Source: Nostoc sp. GT001 (GTDB lineage Bacteria > Cyanobacteriota > Cyanobacteriia > Cyanobacteriales > Nostocaceae). Taken from it: DNA of 18,475 nt. A program made the position numbers and the translations under genes. Within the stretch, counting starts at the first letter, position 1. Each line of letters starts with the position of its first letter. Below the pieces are notes generated by a model. That model did not search any database. It saw only the letters and a program-made list of their open reading frames with translations, and had not been told where the DNA came from. The stretch spans positions 118,174-136,648 of the forward strand of contig NZ_JAUDRJ010000001.1 in assembly GCF_030382115.1 (NCBI RefSeq), given 5' to 3'. This document shows, one piece after another, positions 7,698-15,877 of the stretch.

Positions 7698-8576
7698 ATG
7701 CGCTTAATCAATCGTTTTCAGGCTCTAGCTATTGCCACTGGGCTAGTTGCGTTGTTGGGATGTGCGCCAGCGCCAAGCCAGCCACCAACATTAACTCAGT
7801 CGCCGACACCGACAACAGAAAAACCATTACAGCCAACGCCGATTGTACTTACCTCAATAAGCCCTCACCTGCTTTTGGGCAATCCCAGCAGCGCAACTCC
7901 AACGAGCATTACTCCAGATAATTACCTCATGGTAAAAAACCAGTACGCGCTCTCTTACAACCAAACCAAAGGGACTGCCAACTGGGTAGCTTGGCAGTTA
8001 AATAAAACCTGGCTTGGCGATGCTGAACGCCAAAATAACTTTCGCCCTGATAATACTTTGCCTGCTGGTTGGGTGCGGATAACTCCCAGTGCTTACGCAG
8101 GTTCAGGATATGACAAAGGGCATATTGCACCATCGGGCGATCGCACCAAGACGGTAGAGGATAACACTGCCACCTTTTTGATGACCAACATGATGCCCCA
8201 GACACCCGATAACAATAGAAATACGTGGGGGAATTTAGAAGATTATTGTCGAGAATTGGTAAGCCTTGGAAAAGAACTTTACATTGTTGCAGGCCCTTTT
8301 GGTAGTCTTGGCGAACCCCTAAAAGGTAAGGTGACGGTTCCTCAAACTACTTGGAAAGTCGTTGTTGTACTAGACAGCCCTGACTCTGGTCTTGAAAGTA
8401 TTACCGCCAATACTCGTGTCATTGCAGTTAACATACCCAACCAAGAAGAATTAAATAATGATTGGAGAGCTTACAAAGTCAGTGTTGACGAATTAGAAAA
8501 ACTCACAGGCTATGATTTTCTCTCTAATATTTCGCCAAACATTCAAGAAGTTATTGAGAGCAAAGTAGATTTGTAA
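7698..8576 (+). CDS. nucA: NucA-type DNA/RNA non-specific endonuclease, lipoprotein
   Basis: A 292-residue sugar-non-specific nuclease of the His-Me finger family. The N-terminus is a lipoprotein signal (FQALAIATGLVALLGC, lipobox LLGC with Cys22), then a Pro/Thr/Ser-rich linker to about residue 75. The nuclease core has GYDKGHIAPSGDRT with the general base H142, then N173 in NNRNTW and E181 in NLEDY. These spacings (+31 and +39) match H124, N155 and E163 of Anabaena NucA as I remember it. The usual DRGH is here DKGH, a conservative change beside the catalytic His. It should degrade DNA and RNA with a divalent metal outside the cytoplasm, anchored by lipid. It converges on an inhibitor gene ending 5 bases away. 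Confidence 0.9.
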   Translation: MRLINRFQALAIATGLVALLGCAPAPSQPPTLTQSPTPTTEKPLQPTPIVLTSISPHLLLGNPSSATPTSITPDNYLMVKNQYALSYNQTKGTANWVAWQLNKTWLGDAERQNNFRPDNTLPAGWVRITPSAYAGSGYDKGHIAPSGDRTKTVEDNTATFLMTNMMPQTPDNNRNTWGNLEDYCRELVSLGKELYIVAGPFGSLGEPLKGKVTVPQTTWKVVVVLDSPDSGLESITANTRVIAVNIPNQEELNNDWRAYKVSVDELEKLTGYDFLSNISPNIQEVIESKVDL

Positions 8577-8581
8577 ACAAC

Positions 8582-8986
8582 TCAAGTTTCTACAATTTTT
8601 GTAAAAATTCCTGCTAAATTTCCTGCCGGGGTTTGACCAACTACATAAACATCAATCTCTTTACTGCTGAGGCGATACACCTGCAAATTACTCAGGTTTC
8701 TCTTAAGTTCCTGCACAAGGGTTTTAAATCGTTTTACGGTTGCTTTCTCTTCTCCCTCATGCCAATCTTCTTCTGTCGTTGCCACTTGAAAAAAATCGTC
8801 AACCCCCACAATTTTAATGGGTGTATCTTGAGGGTGATTTGTCTGTTGTATAACTTTCTCTGGTGTAGCAGGCGGTGTAGCTGACCATAAGAATGCTTCT
8901 AAGGGGCACTCAAACTCGCTCATCATGAGTAAGCCGTCGGATGCTTGTTTTAACTGTTCTAAAATTTCTGAATTAGTTTTGGTCAT
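8582..8986 (-). CDS. nuiA: NuiA-type nuclease A inhibitor
   Basis: A 134-residue acidic cytosolic protein very close to my memory of the Anabaena NucA inhibitor NuiA (135 residues): MTKTNSEILEQLKQASDGLL at the start, VYRLSSKEIDVYVVGQTPAG and a C-terminal KIVET. NuiA blocks NucA by inserting its C-terminal Thr near the active-site metal, and Glu24 is a contact residue. Both positions are kept here (E24 and the last residue T134). It would protect the cell from NucA before export. The gene is convergent with the nuclease, with 5 bases between the stops, rather than in the same operon. Its ATG overlaps the stop of a decayed upstream reading frame. Confidence 0.9.
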   Translation of the reverse strand: MTKTNSEILEQLKQASDGLLMMSEFECPLEAFLWSATPPATPEKVIQQTNHPQDTPIKIVGVDDFFQVATTEEDWHEGEEKATVKRFKTLVQELKRNLSNLQVYRLSSKEIDVYVVGQTPAGNLAGIFTKIVET

Positions 8987-9307: not shown

Positions 9308-9452
9308 TTATTTTGACAGAACGAATCGCACATCATCCATCCAACCACACTCGCAATCCCAATGCACCCGCGCTGACCAGTCGCGGTCAAACTCATACCC
9401 GCACTGGGGACACTTGCCAGTAAACATAGGATGGGTATCTAGTAGCTCTAGC
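9308..9452 (-). pseudogene. 3' part of the gene split by the transposon
   Basis: The minus-strand frame continues the gene whose 5' part lies at 15634-15877. After one copy of the CTAGC duplication is removed the reading passes in frame from LTQQQQ into LELLDTHPMFTGKCPQCGYE and ends FVLSK at TAA (9308-9310). This fragment carries a C-terminal zinc-ribbon-like pair, CPQCGYEF and CECGW. Without its 5' part it has no start and should not be made. Confidence 0.85.
9448..9452. repeat. Target-site duplication CTAGC, left copy
   Basis: The five bases CTAGC directly before the left end TGTCACTGG are repeated directly after the right end at 15634-15638. A 5-bp duplication is characteristic of Tn7, Mu and Tn5053-type transposition. 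That the flanking gene becomes in-frame when one copy is removed confirms it. Confidence 0.9.
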
Positions 9453-9477
9453 TGTCACTGGAAGCATAACTTTTCCG
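9453..9477 (+). repeat. Left terminal inverted repeat of Tn7-like element (site L1)
   Basis: It reads TGTCACTGGAAGCATAACTT and continues TTCCG, matching the complement of the right end (15609-15633) except for one base inside (GCATAAC against GGATAAC). The outermost TGT is the conserved Tn7-type end where strand transfer occurs. It includes the first TnsB-like repeat at 9460-9477. Confidence 0.9.
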
Positions 9478-9527
9478 TCACGGAAGGCTTATGCTTCTAA
9501 TACACTTCAGAAAAGTTATGCTTCCAA
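9460..9527. repeat. Left-end array of three TnsB-like repeats with hairpin
   Basis: L1 (9460-9477) is GGAAGCATAACTTTTCCG. L2 (9481-9499) is CGGAAGGCTTATGCTTCTA and L3 (9509-9527) is AGAAAAGTTATGCTTCCAA. L2 and L3 are oriented opposite to L1. L1 and L2 form a near-perfect stem: GAAGCATAA pairs with TTATGCTTC and TTCCG with CGGAA, around loop TCA. In Tn7 the sites in the left end all face the terminus, so this layout is unusual. The hairpin might also stop tniQ transcription from leaving the element. Confidence 0.75.
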
Positions 9528-9607
9528 GCACAGATGAACAAAAATATTGGTTTATCCCAAAAGAATAGGTTGAACATGATTTATTAAATCATGATTATCG
9601 TGGTGTA

Positions 9608-11188
9608 TCAATTTTCATAACCGAGTTCCTGTCGAGTTTTAAATAAGGCATCTTGAAAAAATTGCTCCCGTGTATATCCTGGTTTGGTTAAAAGTTTCCT
9701 AACTTGAGCAAGAGTAGGTTCTTTTCCTTGGTTATGAAGCTTAGAAATAGCCTCATTCATTTCATGAATCACTTGATTTCTCTTCTCTAATGTGCAAGCG
9801 TTTCGATATTCTTTGTGACGCTTGGAGATTTGATAGCAAAGTTCAGGGAAGAGTTTATACAATTTGGCACTCTTTATTGGGAGACTTTTCGTAAGAGATT
9901 GCATTGAAGGAGGAGGATTTACTATGAGTGCTGCTTCCAAAAAATTTCTGATTTCTAGAGAATACTGATTAAAATTTTTCAAACGCTCAGTACGACGATG
10001 GAGCTTGAGTGCTTGATATAATTCCGGACAATAATATTTGATAGAATGCCGAGAACACTTAAGCCTTTTAGCAACTTCTGTAATACTTGGAGGAACTTCT
10101 TCAAGAAGAGCTTGTGTAAGAACTTGTCGAATTTTTATCTTGTCTAATTTTGTTGGCTTTGGTTTATCATCTTGCTCTTTTCCTTTGACAAATAGCTGAG
10201 AACTAACCTTTAATTTCCCAATAAGAGTATTAATATCTTCGGTAAAAAATTTCAGAGGAGATGTTTGGAAAGCGGATGTAATTTGTAAGAGTTTATCAAT
10301 TCGGGGAATTCGTTTATTGTAAAGGTAAATAAGTATGTTTTCACTACGAACACCAATAAAACGAGTAAATGTAGCTATTTCCCCTTTAGTAATATTATTA
10401 GCATTCAAATAAGTATTAAGAACTTGAGCAGTTCTATCCCTAGTTGGTAAAGAAGATAGGTGAGGAGCAGCAGCAATTAATTCACCCATACTGATTGTTA
10501 CATATTCTTGCCATTTAATATTATCTTTATATATGGTTTGATGGTAGGTTTGAATTGATGAGGAAGATCCTAACCAGTTGCCACAGTGGGAACAGTAACC
10601 AAGTTGCATCTGTTTTCCGATTATCGGGAGGGTCTGACGGCAATGAGGACACTCCTCAAGTAAATATTGATAATGGTGAAGACAAATTTTAACTGGATCA
10701 AGAAACCAAAGTAAAGGAATATATAAAGGTTTTTTATTTGTTTGCCATTCTTCATAGCAAACTGGACACCAAGCTTGATGGTCACGAAATAGTTGATGAT
10801 AAGTAGTAATCTCAGACCAAGAAAGCATCGTGAGAAATGATAAATCATTACGTAAAGTTAAAGCTTCTAGCTGTTGAGATAATTTAGTGCTAGTTAATCC
10901 TAATCCATTGAAAGATTTGGAATTGTGAGGCGATCTAAGTAATCGGTAGATTATTTGGCTATAATCAGATAAATCTTTTCTATCAAAATCCTTGAGAATG
11001 TTGGGATGAAGTAGCTTGTTGACAGTAACACAATGAGCTTGAGATAAACGAATTATATAACTGGTCAAACTTTCACACTCAGCTGTTCCAATTCCAATTG
11101 GCTCTAAAGAATATAAACGGCTACATTGAGAACTTTTCGGCTGGTGTAACTCTAACGACTCATAAATATTTAATTTTTTATAGTTCAT
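9608..11188 (-). CDS. tniQ: TniQ/TnsD-like target-selection protein
   Basis: A 526-residue target selector. The N-terminal TniQ domain has the signature ESLTSYIIRLSQAHCVTVNK (about 39-58) and a zinc cluster: C141-x2-C144 (CPVC), C169-HH, C180-x2-C183 (CPHC) and C199-x2-C202 (CSHC). A Xre-like helix-turn-helix follows (about 265-315, IDKLLQITSAFQTSPLKFF). The C-terminus holds three similar DNA-binding-like modules: PSITEVAKRLKCSRHSIKYY, then PSMQSLTKSLPIKSAKLYKL, then EPTLAQVRKLLTKPGYTREQ. At this size it is like TnsD rather than the short TniQ of CRISPR-associated transposons, which implies sequence-specific site recognition. It overlaps tnsC by 11 bases. Confidence 0.88.
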   Translation of the reverse strand: MNYKKLNIYESLELHQPKSSQCSRLYSLEPIGIGTAECESLTSYIIRLSQAHCVTVNKLLHPNILKDFDRKDLSDYSQIIYRLLRSPHNSKSFNGLGLTSTKLSQQLEALTLRNDLSFLTMLSWSEITTYHQLFRDHQAWCPVCYEEWQTNKKPLYIPLLWFLDPVKICLHHYQYLLEECPHCRQTLPIIGKQMQLGYCSHCGNWLGSSSSIQTYHQTIYKDNIKWQEYVTISMGELIAAAPHLSSLPTRDRTAQVLNTYLNANNITKGEIATFTRFIGVRSENILIYLYNKRIPRIDKLLQITSAFQTSPLKFFTEDINTLIGKLKVSSQLFVKGKEQDDKPKPTKLDKIKIRQVLTQALLEEVPPSITEVAKRLKCSRHSIKYYCPELYQALKLHRRTERLKNFNQYSLEIRNFLEAALIVNPPPSMQSLTKSLPIKSAKLYKLFPELCYQISKRHKEYRNACTLEKRNQVIHEMNEAISKLHNQGKEPTLAQVRKLLTKPGYTREQFFQDALFKTRQELGYEN

Positions 11189-12365
11189 GAGTTTTAATTC
11201 CTACAGAATCTCGTTGAGGTTTACGTTGTCCTACAGCTTTTTTACGTTTTTTTAATTCAGAAGATTGTTCTGGTGATAGCCCAAGTGCTTTTGCAGTTTT
11301 TTGTTTCAAGATGGGTTGGCTGACTAAACCTAATTCAATACGTAGTTTTTCAACTTCACCTTCAATCTCTGCGGCTCTTTTTTCACCCTCCTTAATTGCT
11401 TTAAAAATATTTCGACATTGACCTACTGACAAAGCTCGTCGTTCTAAATGGCTAATTGTCACAATGTTTGCTTCTTCTGCCAGTGCATCAGCCAAAGCAT
11501 TATTCAGCCAATTTTTCAGAATCCCAACACATCCTAAACTGCGTTCATAAAGGTAGTTCCAATTAGACAAGAAATCAGGTTCTTCAACTGTTGGGATTTG
11601 ACATTGAAAATTCCAAATAACACTCTGCCAAATTTCTCTGTCTTCGATGAATTCAGCGTTATAACGAGGCAAGTGAATATAAACACTACGCCGACTTAAT
11701 TGCTCACCAATATCGTGAAGAGTTAGCAACTCATACGTTCCAATTAAACCATGTAAAACTTCTGTACGATTGGCTAGAGATTTAATAGCTTCTGGCACAT
11801 CGGTTAGCTTACGTCCGCTGGCTATCGCTAGTAGATGATGAGCTTCATCAATAAAGAAAGTCTGAGGTCGTCGGTGTTTCAGGGATTGTTCTAATGCCCA
11901 TCCCAAATCAGTTTCAAGAATTTTTTGCTTAATGACAATTTTACCTTCATTATCTGAGTAAATTCCTTGTACTCCGTAGTTAATCTTGTGATTAATAAAT
12001 TCTTTTGGTTCATGAAGGGCATATAAACATCGTTTGAGATGATCTTTAGCATTGAATAGACCAGATTTTTGTACAACTGCTTCTACACTGGCAAATGGAA
12101 TGCGTCCTCGGTCAACTTCCATTTCTTTCCATAACTCTTGAACTATCCATTTTTCAGCGAGCAAGCGTAATTTGGTTTTGCCTACTCCAGTTGGGCTAAA
12201 AATAAAAATAATTTTGGACTCTCCACAATGGCGAATAATAGGCTTAAGAGTTTCAAAAGCTTCATTGAGATAAGGATGCCCCATTGTATAGTTGTCAAAA
12301 TAATTCAGTCGGGCTTGAAGTGGTGCAGTAAGTAATTCCGGCGTAAATAGTCTGTCTGTTGACAT
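11178..12365 (-). CDS. tnsC: TnsC-like AAA+ transposition regulator ATPase
   Basis: A 395-residue AAA+ ATPase. Walker A is SPTGVGKT (57-64) and Walker B is TFFIDEAHH (D173, E174); NRTEVLHGLIGTYELL is a likely sensor 1 region and LSRRSVYIHLPRY an arginine-finger-like region. In Tn7-like elements TnsC forms an ATP-dependent filament on DNA that links the target selector to the TnsAB transposase and gives target immunity. The C-terminal tail (about 340-395) is basic and helical, a place where partner contacts are usual. It starts 2 bases after the tnsAB stop and its end overlaps tniQ by 11 bases, so all three are one translationally coupled operon. Confidence 0.92.
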   Translation of the reverse strand: MSTDRLFTPELLTAPLQARLNYFDNYTMGHPYLNEAFETLKPIIRHCGESKIIFIFSPTGVGKTKLRLLAEKWIVQELWKEMEVDRGRIPFASVEAVVQKSGLFNAKDHLKRCLYALHEPKEFINHKINYGVQGIYSDNEGKIVIKQKILETDLGWALEQSLKHRRPQTFFIDEAHHLLAIASGRKLTDVPEAIKSLANRTEVLHGLIGTYELLTLHDIGEQLSRRSVYIHLPRYNAEFIEDREIWQSVIWNFQCQIPTVEEPDFLSNWNYLYERSLGCVGILKNWLNNALADALAEEANIVTISHLERRALSVGQCRNIFKAIKEGEKRAAEIEGEVEKLRIELGLVSQPILKQKTAKALGLSPEQSSELKKRKKAVGQRKPQRDSVGIKTHEL

Positions 12366-12367
12366 AA

Positions 12368-15085
12368 TTAGTAAATTTTGAAGAGTTTGAGTTTTTCAGG
12401 ATTAACTTCTAATGCAGATTCTCTTGAACTATTCAATTTATTCTGCTCTTTTTCTTCATTGATAGTTTGGCTTTGAATGTAAGGACTTTGTAAAGGTAAT
12501 TCTCCTTCGATGACCTGAAAAACTTCCTGTGCTTGTTTATCTCGCAAGCGTTGTTCGAGTAAAATTTCTTCACCCTCAAGGCTGGCAATAAATTCTCCGA
12601 GTTGTTTAGCTCGAATTTTGTAACTAGAAGTATGGTTTTGTTTTTGTTTCTTGAGTTGGGTAGTTGCTATTTGAACTTCTTTTTCAGAACGTCCTCGGAA
12701 TAGAGAATAATATTCACTAATGCACTCAACCCATTGTCCCCAAACATAAGCATAGGCAATCCCTGCATTAAAAGGATCATATCTAACATCGACTGAAGTA
12801 TTTTCTATTTCTGGGTCACGAAAGGTATTTGACCAGTAGTATTTCTGCTCAACTTTGACTCCTTTTCCTGGCTGCACTTTCGCTCTACTCTTGTTAGTAG
12901 TAGGCAAAGTTAGGATGCGAAAATTTTCGTCATAGGGAATACGACGATGGTTACGACTACCATATTGAGCAATTCCTGCACTAAAGACTTCTCGTGGACT
13001 CTGCCCTTCTAAACTTGGATGTTCAATGATGTCATAAATAGAGTAAGCCCATTCACACAGATATAAGTATAACCATCCCAAAGTCCACAGTGATAAATTC
13101 TTGGGACTGACTGATTTAGTCATCAGTCTGACTTTTTTTGTAATTTGGGTATTGCCAGCTAAATTGTAGAAAAACTGGGTGTTAGTAGTTCCAAACAAGC
13201 GTTCACACACGCTACTAAATCGAGATTTGGTAGTAGGGCGATGCTTAAGAGTACATTCAAACAAAGCCAGCAAAGTTTCAAAATAAGTGCTATAAAATTC
13301 TTTAGCGTTATCTGTGACGATAGTTTGAGGCAGCCGTCCATAACGTTTTACACATATTCGCAGCACCATCATACACGAACGATAGGAAGGAGGATCATAG
13401 CTGGCATAAACTCCTAAAATCCGCCGAGAGAATGCATCCACAAGTAATGTTATCCAAACTCTTCCAAGAACTTTTCCTGTTTTAGAGCATCTGAGTTCAA
13501 TATCTGATTCGGTGTGGTCAATATGGCAAATATGGAAGGGAAAATCCCCATGACGAGGTGTTGTTACTTCTAACTCCCAATAAAAGGGTTCTAATTGATA
13601 AGCACCGCGAAGTCCTTCTCTTCTGACAGTTTGTTCGTAACCAGAACGTTTTTTAATTTCTTTGATAAAAGTTTTATAACTGGGAACTTGAAGTTCAGAA
13701 ATTCCGGTTTCGACACAGAAGTGGACAAATTCGTTATAAACGGACTGTTTGCACTTTTGTTTTTTAGTTTCGTATTTTTCTGTAATAAATTTCTCTATCA
13801 ATTTGAGAATATGTTGAGGTAGCTTTCGATGACGATTACCTTTTTTATTCTCAAAATGTAGTATTCCCAAGTAGCCATATCCATATTTTTGTTGTGCTTG
13901 TTTGTAAGCTGTCAACCAATTTCTTAAAGAGCGTTCTTGTGGTGTATTTGTTTTAATTGGTTGTCCATCTAAATAAGGATAAATCAAACGATAACGACGA
14001 TTAGCTGCCATTAGGTCTGAAAAGCTAGCTCTTTTAAATAAATCCATTACTTGATTATCAAATTCATCCGTTTTCTGAGTACTGGATTTGGTGATTTTAC
14101 CTTGTTTTACTAAATCATCAAAAGTTGTCAAAGATAATGTGACAATTTGCTGCTCTTCTGTTTGAAGTAAAACTTCTGCTTCTCCTACTAAAGTAATGGT
14201 CAGACTTTTGCCGCTATACAAAACGGCTATACCAGGGGTAAGTTCAATTCCTAGTGAGTGAATGGTATTTGTCGTTGATTTAGATAAAATGATTGCGCTA
14301 TACGTTTCTTCGTATAGTTTGTCAATAAATAAAAGACATCTTTCGGCTTCTACCAATGGAAATGCTGTTAAATTTACATAGATTTCTTCATCAGCAATCA
14401 GATGATAAATGTCATCTGTACTGACCCCTTCACCATGATGAAGAAGATTTGCTAAAGTTATACCTGGTTGTGCAGATATCATTGAAAGGATGGTATTTCG
14501 AGTCGCTTTTGCCACTTCAAAAGCATCTGCTTTATAGTAATCTGCCAAAAATTCTAGATTACGATGTAGTGTCCAATTAATCTCAGCATTTGACCAAAGA
14601 CGGAAAAAGAAGCCAAACTGTTGAGCATATTGTTCAGCTTGTGGGCTGTGCCACTGACTGTCATCACCTAAAATGTAACGCCGAGAGCTTTTTTGAGCTA
14701 ATTGATGTAATTTCTCTTCTGGTTTACACTCTACCCATCCAACAGAGTTAGTACGGATAACAAAGAAGTCTGGGGTAATGTAAAAACCAAGATTGCGTCC
14801 TGATGCTTCTTGATAACTGAGTTTAAAAGACGGAGGTTGGTCGTAATACTCTAGAACATCTTCATCATGTTCGAGTTGGTAGATAAAAGGAAGTTCTACT
14901 TTATGAGACTCAAATTGAATGCTCAACCCCATCTTTCGACTAGGGTAACGTCCTGTAACATTGTTATGAGTGCCTCTGACACGACGGGAGGGAGTAGATG
15001 AGCGGACTTGTTGGATTTCCTGTTGTGCTTTCTCTGATAGCTTTAGACAGCAGCACCATTGGTTAAATTCATCATCACTCAGCAT
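12368..15085 (-). CDS. tnsAB: TnsA-TnsB fusion transposase
   Basis: A 905-residue fusion. The N-terminal part (about 45-250) is a TnsA-like restriction-type endonuclease: acidic E64/E72 in ELPFIYQLEHD, D106 in ITPDFFV and E119-x-K121 in GWVECKP, the PD-(D/E)xK pattern, followed by the winged-helix part. The rest is TnsB, a DDE integrase: helix-turn-helix DNA binding (about 340-500), then D523 in HICHIDHTES, D592 in IVTDNAKEF and E628 in SVCERLFG, and a C-terminal Mu-type beta barrel and coiled tail. Together they cut both strands at each end, so cut-and-paste movement is expected. All catalytic residues are present. GAGGAAA before the ATG is a good ribosome binding site. Fused TnsAB is known from some cyanobacterial elements, including type I-B CASTs. 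Confidence 0.93.
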   Translation of the reverse strand: MLSDDEFNQWCCCLKLSEKAQQEIQQVRSSTPSRRVRGTHNNVTGRYPSRKMGLSIQFESHKVELPFIYQLEHDEDVLEYYDQPPSFKLSYQEASGRNLGFYITPDFFVIRTNSVGWVECKPEEKLHQLAQKSSRRYILGDDSQWHSPQAEQYAQQFGFFFRLWSNAEINWTLHRNLEFLADYYKADAFEVAKATRNTILSMISAQPGITLANLLHHGEGVSTDDIYHLIADEEIYVNLTAFPLVEAERCLLFIDKLYEETYSAIILSKSTTNTIHSLGIELTPGIAVLYSGKSLTITLVGEAEVLLQTEEQQIVTLSLTTFDDLVKQGKITKSSTQKTDEFDNQVMDLFKRASFSDLMAANRRYRLIYPYLDGQPIKTNTPQERSLRNWLTAYKQAQQKYGYGYLGILHFENKKGNRHRKLPQHILKLIEKFITEKYETKKQKCKQSVYNEFVHFCVETGISELQVPSYKTFIKEIKKRSGYEQTVRREGLRGAYQLEPFYWELEVTTPRHGDFPFHICHIDHTESDIELRCSKTGKVLGRVWITLLVDAFSRRILGVYASYDPPSYRSCMMVLRICVKRYGRLPQTIVTDNAKEFYSTYFETLLALFECTLKHRPTTKSRFSSVCERLFGTTNTQFFYNLAGNTQITKKVRLMTKSVSPKNLSLWTLGWLYLYLCEWAYSIYDIIEHPSLEGQSPREVFSAGIAQYGSRNHRRIPYDENFRILTLPTTNKSRAKVQPGKGVKVEQKYYWSNTFRDPEIENTSVDVRYDPFNAGIAYAYVWGQWVECISEYYSLFRGRSEKEVQIATTQLKKQKQNHTSSYKIRAKQLGEFIASLEGEEILLEQRLRDKQAQEVFQVIEGELPLQSPYIQSQTINEEKEQNKLNSSRESALEVNPEKLKLFKIY

Positions 15086-15243
15086 GGCATTTTCCTCACT
15101 ATTCGACTCTCAGTATTGGGAGTATAAGAATAGTTATCGCCTAATATACATCTATATTGACTTAAATTAGATGTAAATTAACTCAATTTAATCTGGCTGA
15201 TATAGGGAAGTAAAATAAGCTGAAAGTGAGCAGTAACTAATTT
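15086..15243. promoter_or_regulatory. Divergent control region with inverted repeat, candidate operator
   Basis: The 158-base AT-rich space between tnsAB (minus) and the CopG-type gene (plus) contains an inverted repeat TACATCTA (15147-15154) and TAGATGTA (15168-15175), separated by 13 bases. A ribbon-helix-helix repressor such as the adjacent gene product would typically bind such a site, so autoregulation and control of the transposase operon are plausible. I could not place promoter boxes with confidence. Confidence 0.4.
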
Positions 15244-15432
15244 GTGAGTAAACGAATTAACATCACCTTACCCGATTCTGTATTAGATGATCTGGAGTGG
15301 TGGGCACAATTCCAAGGACGGCCTACCGCTAATCTTGCTGCTTTTCTGATTGAGATGTCTATCAAAGAAGCAAAGGATAAGGGGATATTTCCTGATAAAA
15401 CAGACTCTAATGACAATGTTCTAAAAAAGTAA
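15244..15432 (+). CDS. CopG-type ribbon-helix-helix protein
   Basis: A 62-residue protein with the ribbon-helix-helix pattern: N-terminal beta strand SKRINITLPDSVLDDLEWWA (residues 2-21), then a turn (GRPTANLAAF) and helix 2 (LIEMSIKEAKDKGI). Such proteins bind DNA as dimers and often act as repressors or antitoxins. It starts with GTG and has no clear ribosome binding site. It is inside the transposon, divergent from tnsAB, and no toxin partner follows it. The likely role is repression of transposition genes, inferred from position. Confidence 0.75.
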   Translation: MSKRINITLPDSVLDDLEWWAQFQGRPTANLAAFLIEMSIKEAKDKGIFPDKTDSNDNVLKK

Positions 15433-15478
15433 GAGTTTCCTTGAGTTATTGATTTTTATGAAAACTAACTTGGACTCA

Positions 15479-15527
15479 CAGAAATCTTATGCTTCCAATT
15501 TGGGCTTTCGGAAAAGTTATGCTTCTA
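15479..15527 (+). repeat. Right-end internal TnsB-like repeats R3 and R2
   Basis: R3 (15479-15498) is CAGAAATCTTATGCTTCCAA and R2 (15509-15527) is CGGAAAAGTTATGCTTCTA. Both are direct repeats of the terminal right site and face the right terminus, as expected for TnsB sites in a Tn7-like end. The apparent open frame across this stretch is only a by-product of the repeats. Confidence 0.75.
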
Positions 15528-15608
15528 GTCACTTAAAGATAAGCGTCATCATCCAACATGAACATAAGGGTTATAGAGTTTTTCACAGAAATGTTATTGT
15601 TCCACTGG

Positions 15609-15633
15609 CGGAAAAGTTATCCTTCCAGTGACA
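15609..15633 (-). repeat. Right terminal inverted repeat of Tn7-like element (site R1)
   Basis: Ends CTTCCAGTGACA, preceded by CGGAAAAGTTATC. It matches the complement of the left end with one internal mismatch. ACA is the conserved Tn7-type terminus, and the target duplication CTAGC follows immediately. Confidence 0.9.
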
Positions 15634-15638
15634 CTAGC
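15634..15638. repeat. Target-site duplication CTAGC, right copy
   Basis: Direct copy of 9448-9452 immediately outside the right terminus ACA. Confidence 0.9.
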
Positions 15639-15877
15639 TGTTGCTGTTGAGTCAAGCGCTGTTGCGGTTGCAAAATTAGTTCGCCGTTGTAGTAGGTTGC
15701 GCCTTCTGGCTCCCACAGTTCCTCTGGTTCGGCGTTGGGGTCTTCTCGAAAATCTAGGCAACTGTTACCGTCTACCCCCGTCGGATGTACGACACAGATG
15801 ATGTGGGGGTTATGGGCGTAAAGGAAACAGCGATCGCACTCTGGTAATTTCGGCATAGTACCAGTGTATTGCCACAA
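15634..15877 (-). pseudogene. 5' part of a cysteine-rich gene split by the transposon
   Basis: Start and N-terminal two thirds of a small cyanobacterial protein of unknown function: MPKLPECDRCFLYAHNPHII, then CVVHPTGVDGNSCLDFRE and ELWEPEGATYYNGELILQPQ. The likely native start is the ATG at 15856 (MPKLPECDRC) rather than the one at 15877. The frame now runs five codons into the transposon end (VSLEG) and stops. Joined to 9308-9447 it gives 127 codons from the first ATG, with Cys pairs at both ends (CDRC...CVVH and CPQCG...CECGW), which suggests metal binding. Two HIP1 sites lie at its 5' end and just upstream. Confidence 0.85.

Follow-up and report, generated by a model that had tools for sequence, protein, structure and literature searches.

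The window analysed here, an 18,475-bp stretch of a Nostoc sp. GT001 contig, carries a Tn7-like transposable element of 6181 bp (9453-15633) that splits a small zinc-ribbon-like gene and holds tnsAB, tnsC, tniQ and a ribbon-helix-helix (RHH) gene (Table 1). We consider it highly probable that this is a Tn7-like transposon of the subfamily in which TnsA is fused to TnsB, complete, free of cargo and recently inserted, that it resides in a Nostoc-type genome, most likely moves by a cut-and-paste cycle and is probably a relative of elements that home to transfer RNA (tRNA) genes. Its ends are exact to the base, as a preliminary description of the window had proposed: the window contains TGTCACTGG in two inverted copies, at 9453 (+) and 15633 (-), which are the very ends of the element, and two occurrences arose by chance in 3 of 200 shuffles (shuffle mean 0.12). 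Read inwards, the two ends are identical at 24 of their first 25 bp and are flanked by a CTAGC target-site duplication (TSD), and a scan around TnsAB for terminal inverted repeats (TIRs) with a 5-bp TSD returned this pair as the sole one at the cut-offs used (19/20 TIR positions, 6181 bp). The ends are of the Tn7 type (TGT...ACA, several TnsB-like sites, 5-bp TSD). The 16-mer GGAAGCATAACTTTTC is matched within the element six times at up to three mismatches, twice on the tniQ side and four times on the tnsAB side (shuffles: mean 0.06, maximum 1), and these copies look like TnsB sites; direct repeats of at least 20 nt within 150 bp are confined to the two ends.

The gene content given in the preliminary description was likewise borne out in Pfam, where the CopG-type protein is an RHH_5 member, and with TnsA and TnsB domains, an AAA+ TnsC and a TniQ the element is indeed a minimal Tn7-like one. 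Residues 5-863 of the 905 of TnsAB match chain 9bw1_M of a type I-B CRISPR-associated transposon (CAST; CRISPR, clustered regularly interspaced short palindromic repeats) complex with 1093 bits, and its Mu_C match lies 0.1 bit below the cut-off of that family. D106, E119 and K121 of the TnsA site and D523, D592 and E628 of the DDE site are all present. Neither cargo nor CRISPR components were found in the element: no gene other than the four of the transposon matches a family, repeats are restricted to the ends, six further frames of 60-75 aa matched no Pfam family, no tRNA or tandem array was detected, and Rfam gave no family at gathering score, its one snoRNA match being at chance level (E 0.83). 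With no repeats away from the ends and nothing in Rfam at gathering score, a hidden CRISPR or RNA was rejected. The stretch between tnsAB and the RHH gene, with its inverted repeat, is similar by eye in the related loci L053, L099 and L106 (L numbers denote the loci compared), where the position of the RHH gene is identical; a gene of the same kind holds the same place in L100 as well, and in L103, which is without tnsAB. As RHH_5 repressors are described beside cas12k in type V-K CASTs (excerpt of PMC9938897), the RHH_5 protein may, by analogy, fairly be read as a repressor here too.

Table 1. Features of the element and its target in the window, and Tn3-type terminal inverted repeats beside related elements
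Feature	Position	Strand	Remark
Interrupted small zinc-ribbon-like gene, 3' part	9308..9452	-	tniQ side of element
TSD copy 1, CTAGC	9448..9452	.	
TIR, tniQ side	9453..9477	+	
TnsB-binding-like 16-mers, tniQ side	9460..9525		9460-9475 (+), 9510-9525 (-); degenerate copy 9480-9497
tniQ, full-length target selector, 526 aa	9608..11188	-	TniQ domain, zinc-finger cysteines, XRE-type helix-turn-helix (HTH) about 250-320, two more HTH-like repeats
tnsC, AAA+ regulator, 395 aa	11178..12365	-	AAA_22/TniB match; Walker A SPTGVGKT intact
tnsAB, TnsA endonuclease fused to TnsB DDE transposase, 905 aa	12368..15085	-	TnsA_C, rve, Mu_C matches
Inverted repeat between tnsAB and RHH gene, 13-nt arms	15142..15180	.	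candidate operator
RHH_5 (CopG-like) protein, 62 aa	15244..15432	+	divergent from tnsAB; candidate repressor
Four TnsB-binding-like 16-mers, tnsAB side	15481..15626	-	15481-15496, 15511-15526, 15588-15603, 15611-15626
TIR, tnsAB side	15609..15633	-	
TSD copy 2, CTAGC	15634..15638	.	
Interrupted gene, 5' part	15639..15856	-	ATG at 15856; alternative TTG at 15877
Tn3-type TIR beside related elements	L108:9026, L110:8764, L115:9139, L056:15661	+	
Tn3-type TIR beside related elements	L109, L111:6938, L117:6925, L133:6693, L067	-	

When the flanks are joined, an open frame runs across the insertion site. The in-frame restoration seen in the preliminary description thus stands, but not the length of 127 codons, which counts from the TTG, whereas homologues start at the internal ATG and give a natural gene of about 120 codons. 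In a set of 208 genomes of the family that includes the own one, 83 match the joined protein, and homologues align across the predicted junction without a gap in 20 of 20 loci among the matches listed, a point on which the preliminary description had staked its boundaries. It had also looked to related genomes for the uninterrupted gene, which is found there, including on three Nostoc plasmids (pANSO36C, p057_I and pC052_G) that are empty sites, the intact gene lying beside the same nuclease and NuiA genes as in the window; pANSO36C aligns through the empty site at 91.6% DNA identity over 358 columns, with 3 gap positions, none of them within 40 bp of the junction. Since ends, TSD, joined frame, homologues and empty sites agree, the boundaries and the restoration of the gene are real. 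The nuclease pairing itself, a non-specific nuclease gene adjacent to one for a NuiA-type inhibitor (7698-8986), recurs on several Nostoc and Tolypothrix plasmids.

The contig of the window is probably a plasmid, since it measures 361,862 bp in a genome of 7.9 Mb whose contig C3 takes up 7.3 Mb; the left flank matches 37 plasmid records, 26 of them from Nostoc. Two cousins reside in the same genome. L048 (C3:1780816-1797606; 16,791 bp, TSD ACAAC) has two TniQs, an adjoining tRNA-Ala gene and HerA-like, methyltransferase-like and PDC-M55C/HEC-05-like proteins, a likely defence cargo. L049:1643-6718, on the contig of the window, is a second TnsAB-TnsC-TniQ element, with no ends found, whose clade includes the Tn5469 group.

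Of 141 loci tested for compact elements, 130 have a TnsAB frame of 250 aa or longer, and 16 rows combine matching ends and a TSD with a length below 7 kb; 13 are left once L207, which matched weakly, and two loci retrieved in duplicate are set aside: the window element, L108, L109, L110, L115, L125, L174, L195, L201, L208, L215, L216 and L231. Nine more rows with ends and TSD, L048 among them, are longer. Compact kin are repeated in genome G419, where four near-identical copies occupy as many sites and three have perfect TSDs, and the whole of a 5702-bp Desmonostoc contig (L053) is taken up by a single element, as expected of a collapsed repeat. Two arrangements seen in this survey deserve mention on their own account. 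L116:6070-6386 is a 317-bp mini-element with TSD GCAAT and the same ends as the full element adjoining it 5 bp away, probably a miniature inverted-repeat transposable element of a Tn7-like transposon; and at L109:12456-13344 a copy lies beside an older decayed one, and the same 5-bp target, CCCAG, separates the two and recurs on either outer flank, pointing to repeat use of one site.

The descent of TnsAB was followed in a careful tree of 32 rows and an unrooted one of 96; I-D, V-K and I-F CASTs and Tn7 lie outside the trees of this work, and no I-D member was identified among the loci. In the 32-row tree the window TnsAB falls, with support 100/99, in a group of seven rows together with L158 and L159, each with two TniQs and adjacent to tRNA-Thr and tRNA-Val, respectively, L051 and L160, each with one TnsD and the former beside tRNA-Ala, and L161 and L162, with a short TniQ; L158, L159 and L051 are thus the tRNA-adjacent members. 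A single clade of the window TnsAB and the Tn5469-type rows L125, L208 and L215 is rejected by the approximately unbiased (AU) test (p 5.8e-5), which rules out membership of the Tn5469 clade, and so is a clade with five I-B2 CAST rows (AU p 1.8e-4). In the 96-row tree the 13 compact and 19 tRNA-adjacent rows (L162 and L168 being without a testable TSD) need four state changes, so that stripped-down elements arose, or regained homing, several times. The window element is probably a relative of tRNA-homing elements that was reduced or had its TniQ swapped. Fused-TnsAB elements are also present in assemblies of Bacillota, Acidobacteriota, Chloroflexota and Gammaproteobacteria (L184, L186-L188, L190 and L194, the contig of the last being only 5.8 kb).

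The preliminary description had gone further and suggested kinship with the elements that gave rise to TnsAB-type CASTs. As stated this is not supported, for the window TnsAB sits in another clade and the test against the I-B2 clade rules out a CAST ancestor by TnsAB; the idea survives only as a weak lead in TniQ. A hand-picked, careful tree of 34 TniQ rows puts the window TniQ and that of I-B2 CASTs on the same side (96/95) and joins them at 90/85, and the mixed compact and CAST side has support 83 in a quick tree of 81 rows and 97 in one of 122. The rival placement of I-B2 TniQ with tRNA-homing TnsD stays above rejection (p 0.07), as does forcing it together with the hand-picked compact set (p 0.123), among which the free tree places other single-TniQ rows. 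L171 is assigned to I-B2 because of its host, its tRNA-Val setting and the match of its TniQ to 8fcu_P over all 329 residues, 8fcu being entitled as a type I-B CAST. Cas10d matches occur in 13 of 24 genomes of named relatives, 12 above the cut-off (L198's genome outside), and, as their contig numbers are not relatable to those of the TnsAB loci, speak neither for nor against I-D CASTs; a query of genome contigs and viral contigs with TniQ alone gave no lead.

In a sister clade, compact elements with a full-length TniQ share a motif in the flank on the tniQ side, and this motif is the TIR of Tn3-family transposons: it follows a Tn3 transposase frame by about 157 bp in L257, L260 and L262, of which L260 and L262 terminate exactly at its CCCC, and in L111 it forms, by eye, an inverted pair with TSD AATTT. 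When scored with a weight matrix, the motif is clear in 7 of 13 sister-clade elements, namely six in leave-one-out and L067, which had been kept out of the matrix from the beginning, the TIR edge lying 54-58 bp from the insertion. L109 and L110 have a second TIR variant in the same register, which leave-one-out left unrecovered in L109 (p 0.17) and recovered weakly in L110 (p 0.027); this variant, recognised by eye, reads GGGG...ACGCTAAG, a pattern known from Tn3-family ends. The motif also occurs in the same register in L089 and in a remnant in L105, neither of them among the 13, and is absent from seven flanks of short-TniQ elements and from eight elements that belong to other clades. Several observations weigh against targeting of the TIR: four of the 13 scored elements (L132, L116, L174 and L055) lack the motif, it was first spotted by eye in the very flanks later scored, it lies on the tnsAB side in L166 (outside the 13) and on both sides in L111, and L108-L111 are four insertions in one genome. 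No paper on such targeting by Tn7-like elements came up among the open-licence papers searched; should the TIR preference of the sister clade hold up, it would give Tn7-like elements one more way of targeting. At L249:1200-1524 there is also an inverted pair of Tn3-type TIRs about 300 bp apart with TSD AACAG, a probable Tn3-derived miniature element. The window element itself has no Tn3-type TIR at 54-58 bp on either side (tniQ side p 0.485, tnsAB side p 0.380), and Tn3-TIR targeting was rejected for it.

How would the element move? Judging from the families of its proteins, TnsAB would bind the repeated 16-mers at both ends, its TnsB part cutting and joining the 3' ends and its TnsA part cutting the 5' ends, so that the element leaves by cut-and-paste; TnsC would connect the ends to the target, TniQ would select the latter by binding DNA beside the insertion, and the RHH protein would repress tnsAB through the intergenic inverted repeat. 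That the element may be active, as suggested before, agrees with its open frames and catalytic residues. The empty site, the intact motifs, the anatomy of the element and its place in the trees are observed; activity, recency, the target of TniQ, repression by the RHH protein and the direction of descent are deduced. Some points weigh against the reading of a complete and recently moved transposon of tRNA-homing descent: movement is deduced from sequence, the own genome holds a single full copy, and the closest TniQ (82%) belongs to a decayed remnant, L098:7407-9872, whose ends are gone and which runs into a Tn3 transposase fragment. As for the direction of descent, that TnsD was lost here and not gained by others is read from neighbours in an unrooted tree, and the group of seven is itself mixed: besides the window it comprises two rows apiece with two TniQs, with one TnsD and with a short TniQ. 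The single copy and the decay of L098 would also fit a dead relic fixed in place, which is a very improbable alternative given four open frames, intact catalytic residues, a perfect TSD and interrupted-gene halves that are still in frame. Equally hard to credit, in the light of the TnsAB clades, is a minimal, ancestor-like relative of TnsAB-type CASTs, of a line whose small autonomous elements later recruited Cascade.

Most related elements with a target motif have it on the tniQ side, where the window element has the conserved 3' part of the interrupted gene; by analogy the window TniQ, of which one insertion is known, may read this part. A site-specific element in the full sense, whose TniQ recognises the conserved zinc-ribbon-like part of a gene family common in the host family and on Nostoc plasmids, is possible but unlikely: the TniQ retains its XRE-type HTH and two more HTH-like repeats, sister compact elements with a full-length TniQ have their own target motif, and the gene family is present in 83 of 208 genomes, but a search for repeated use of the gene was fruitless. 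Ten regions with homologues matching in part or as a control comprised an intact own paralogue (L278), two homologues with frameshifts only (L275, L276) and seven truncated ones, and no Tn7-like end was present within 120 bp of the break in the four that are 3'-truncated (L272, L273, L274, L277) or noticed by eye in the others, the three 5'-truncated ones included; even L272, which breaks near the residue of the window junction, has none. Repeated insertion into the same gene was accordingly rejected. Just as doubtful is an untargeted mover whose TniQ only activates TnsC: Tn5469 appears limited to untargeted transposition (excerpt of PMC11406308) and the TniQs closest by tree, the short ones, sit at unrelated flanks with the Tn3 motif in none of the seven scored, but the window TniQ keeps a C-terminal HTH region that those lack. 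A wider scenario, which we regard as less likely still, would make compact elements with a full-length TniQ hunters of other mobile DNA: one clade would insert immediately within Tn3-family inverted repeats, and the window element would use a TniQ of the same multi-HTH kind to find a different, plasmid-associated site. The I-B2 CAST TniQ would derive from the line of these autonomous selectors, having shed the C-terminal half that binds DNA, and the CAST TnsAB from another branch.

Whatever its targeting, the transposon is a base-exact and intact addition, with a single selector, to a group where CRISPR-guided and protein-guided targeting coexist, its full-length TniQ is close to short ones, perhaps including that of I-B2 CASTs, and it is small enough for testing as it stands.

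Among known systems, L125 and L126 (TnsAB 909, TnsC 375 and TniQ 273 aa; L125 of 4904 bp with TSD GAAGA) are presumably Tn5469, judging from a closely related host and from the length of Tn5469, which 4904 bp fits. The window element is likewise cargo-free, with a single TniQ and a fused TnsAB, but its TnsAB belongs to another clade, its TniQ has 526 aa instead of 273, and it has an RHH gene, whereas an RHH query found none beside L125. Cargo is carried by 96% of 6,549 Tn7-like transposons (excerpt of PMC8649781), so that cargo-free ones are a known minority, to which Tn5469 of Fremyella diplosiphon / Tolypothrix PCC 7601, cyanobacterial and with one TniQ, also belongs (excerpt of PMC11406308); the window element works like Tn5469 and is of another lineage. 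Its closest TnsABs are those of dual-TniQ, tRNA-adjacent elements (67% to L158, 58% to L048), and its ends resemble those of L048 (79% over 75 bp and 72% over 151 bp), but it has neither their second TniQ (TnsD) nor an adjacent tRNA gene, nor the cargo of L048. The short-TniQ elements (L053/L162, L099, L100, L103, L106; L161) are compact where ends are known, with TnsAB at 62% (L053), the N-terminal half of TniQ at 43-44% and the RHH gene in the same place in five (none detected in L161); their TniQ, in contrast, has about 309-333 aa and is without the C-terminal half. With the type I-B2 CAST (PmcCAST, L171) the element shares the fused TnsAB, TnsC and the TniQ fold, but not the cas genes, the CRISPR, the tRNA-homing TnsD or the TnsAB clade. 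Within its subfamily, then, the element is of an ordinary kind; its boundaries are clean, and its full-length selector occupies an informative position.

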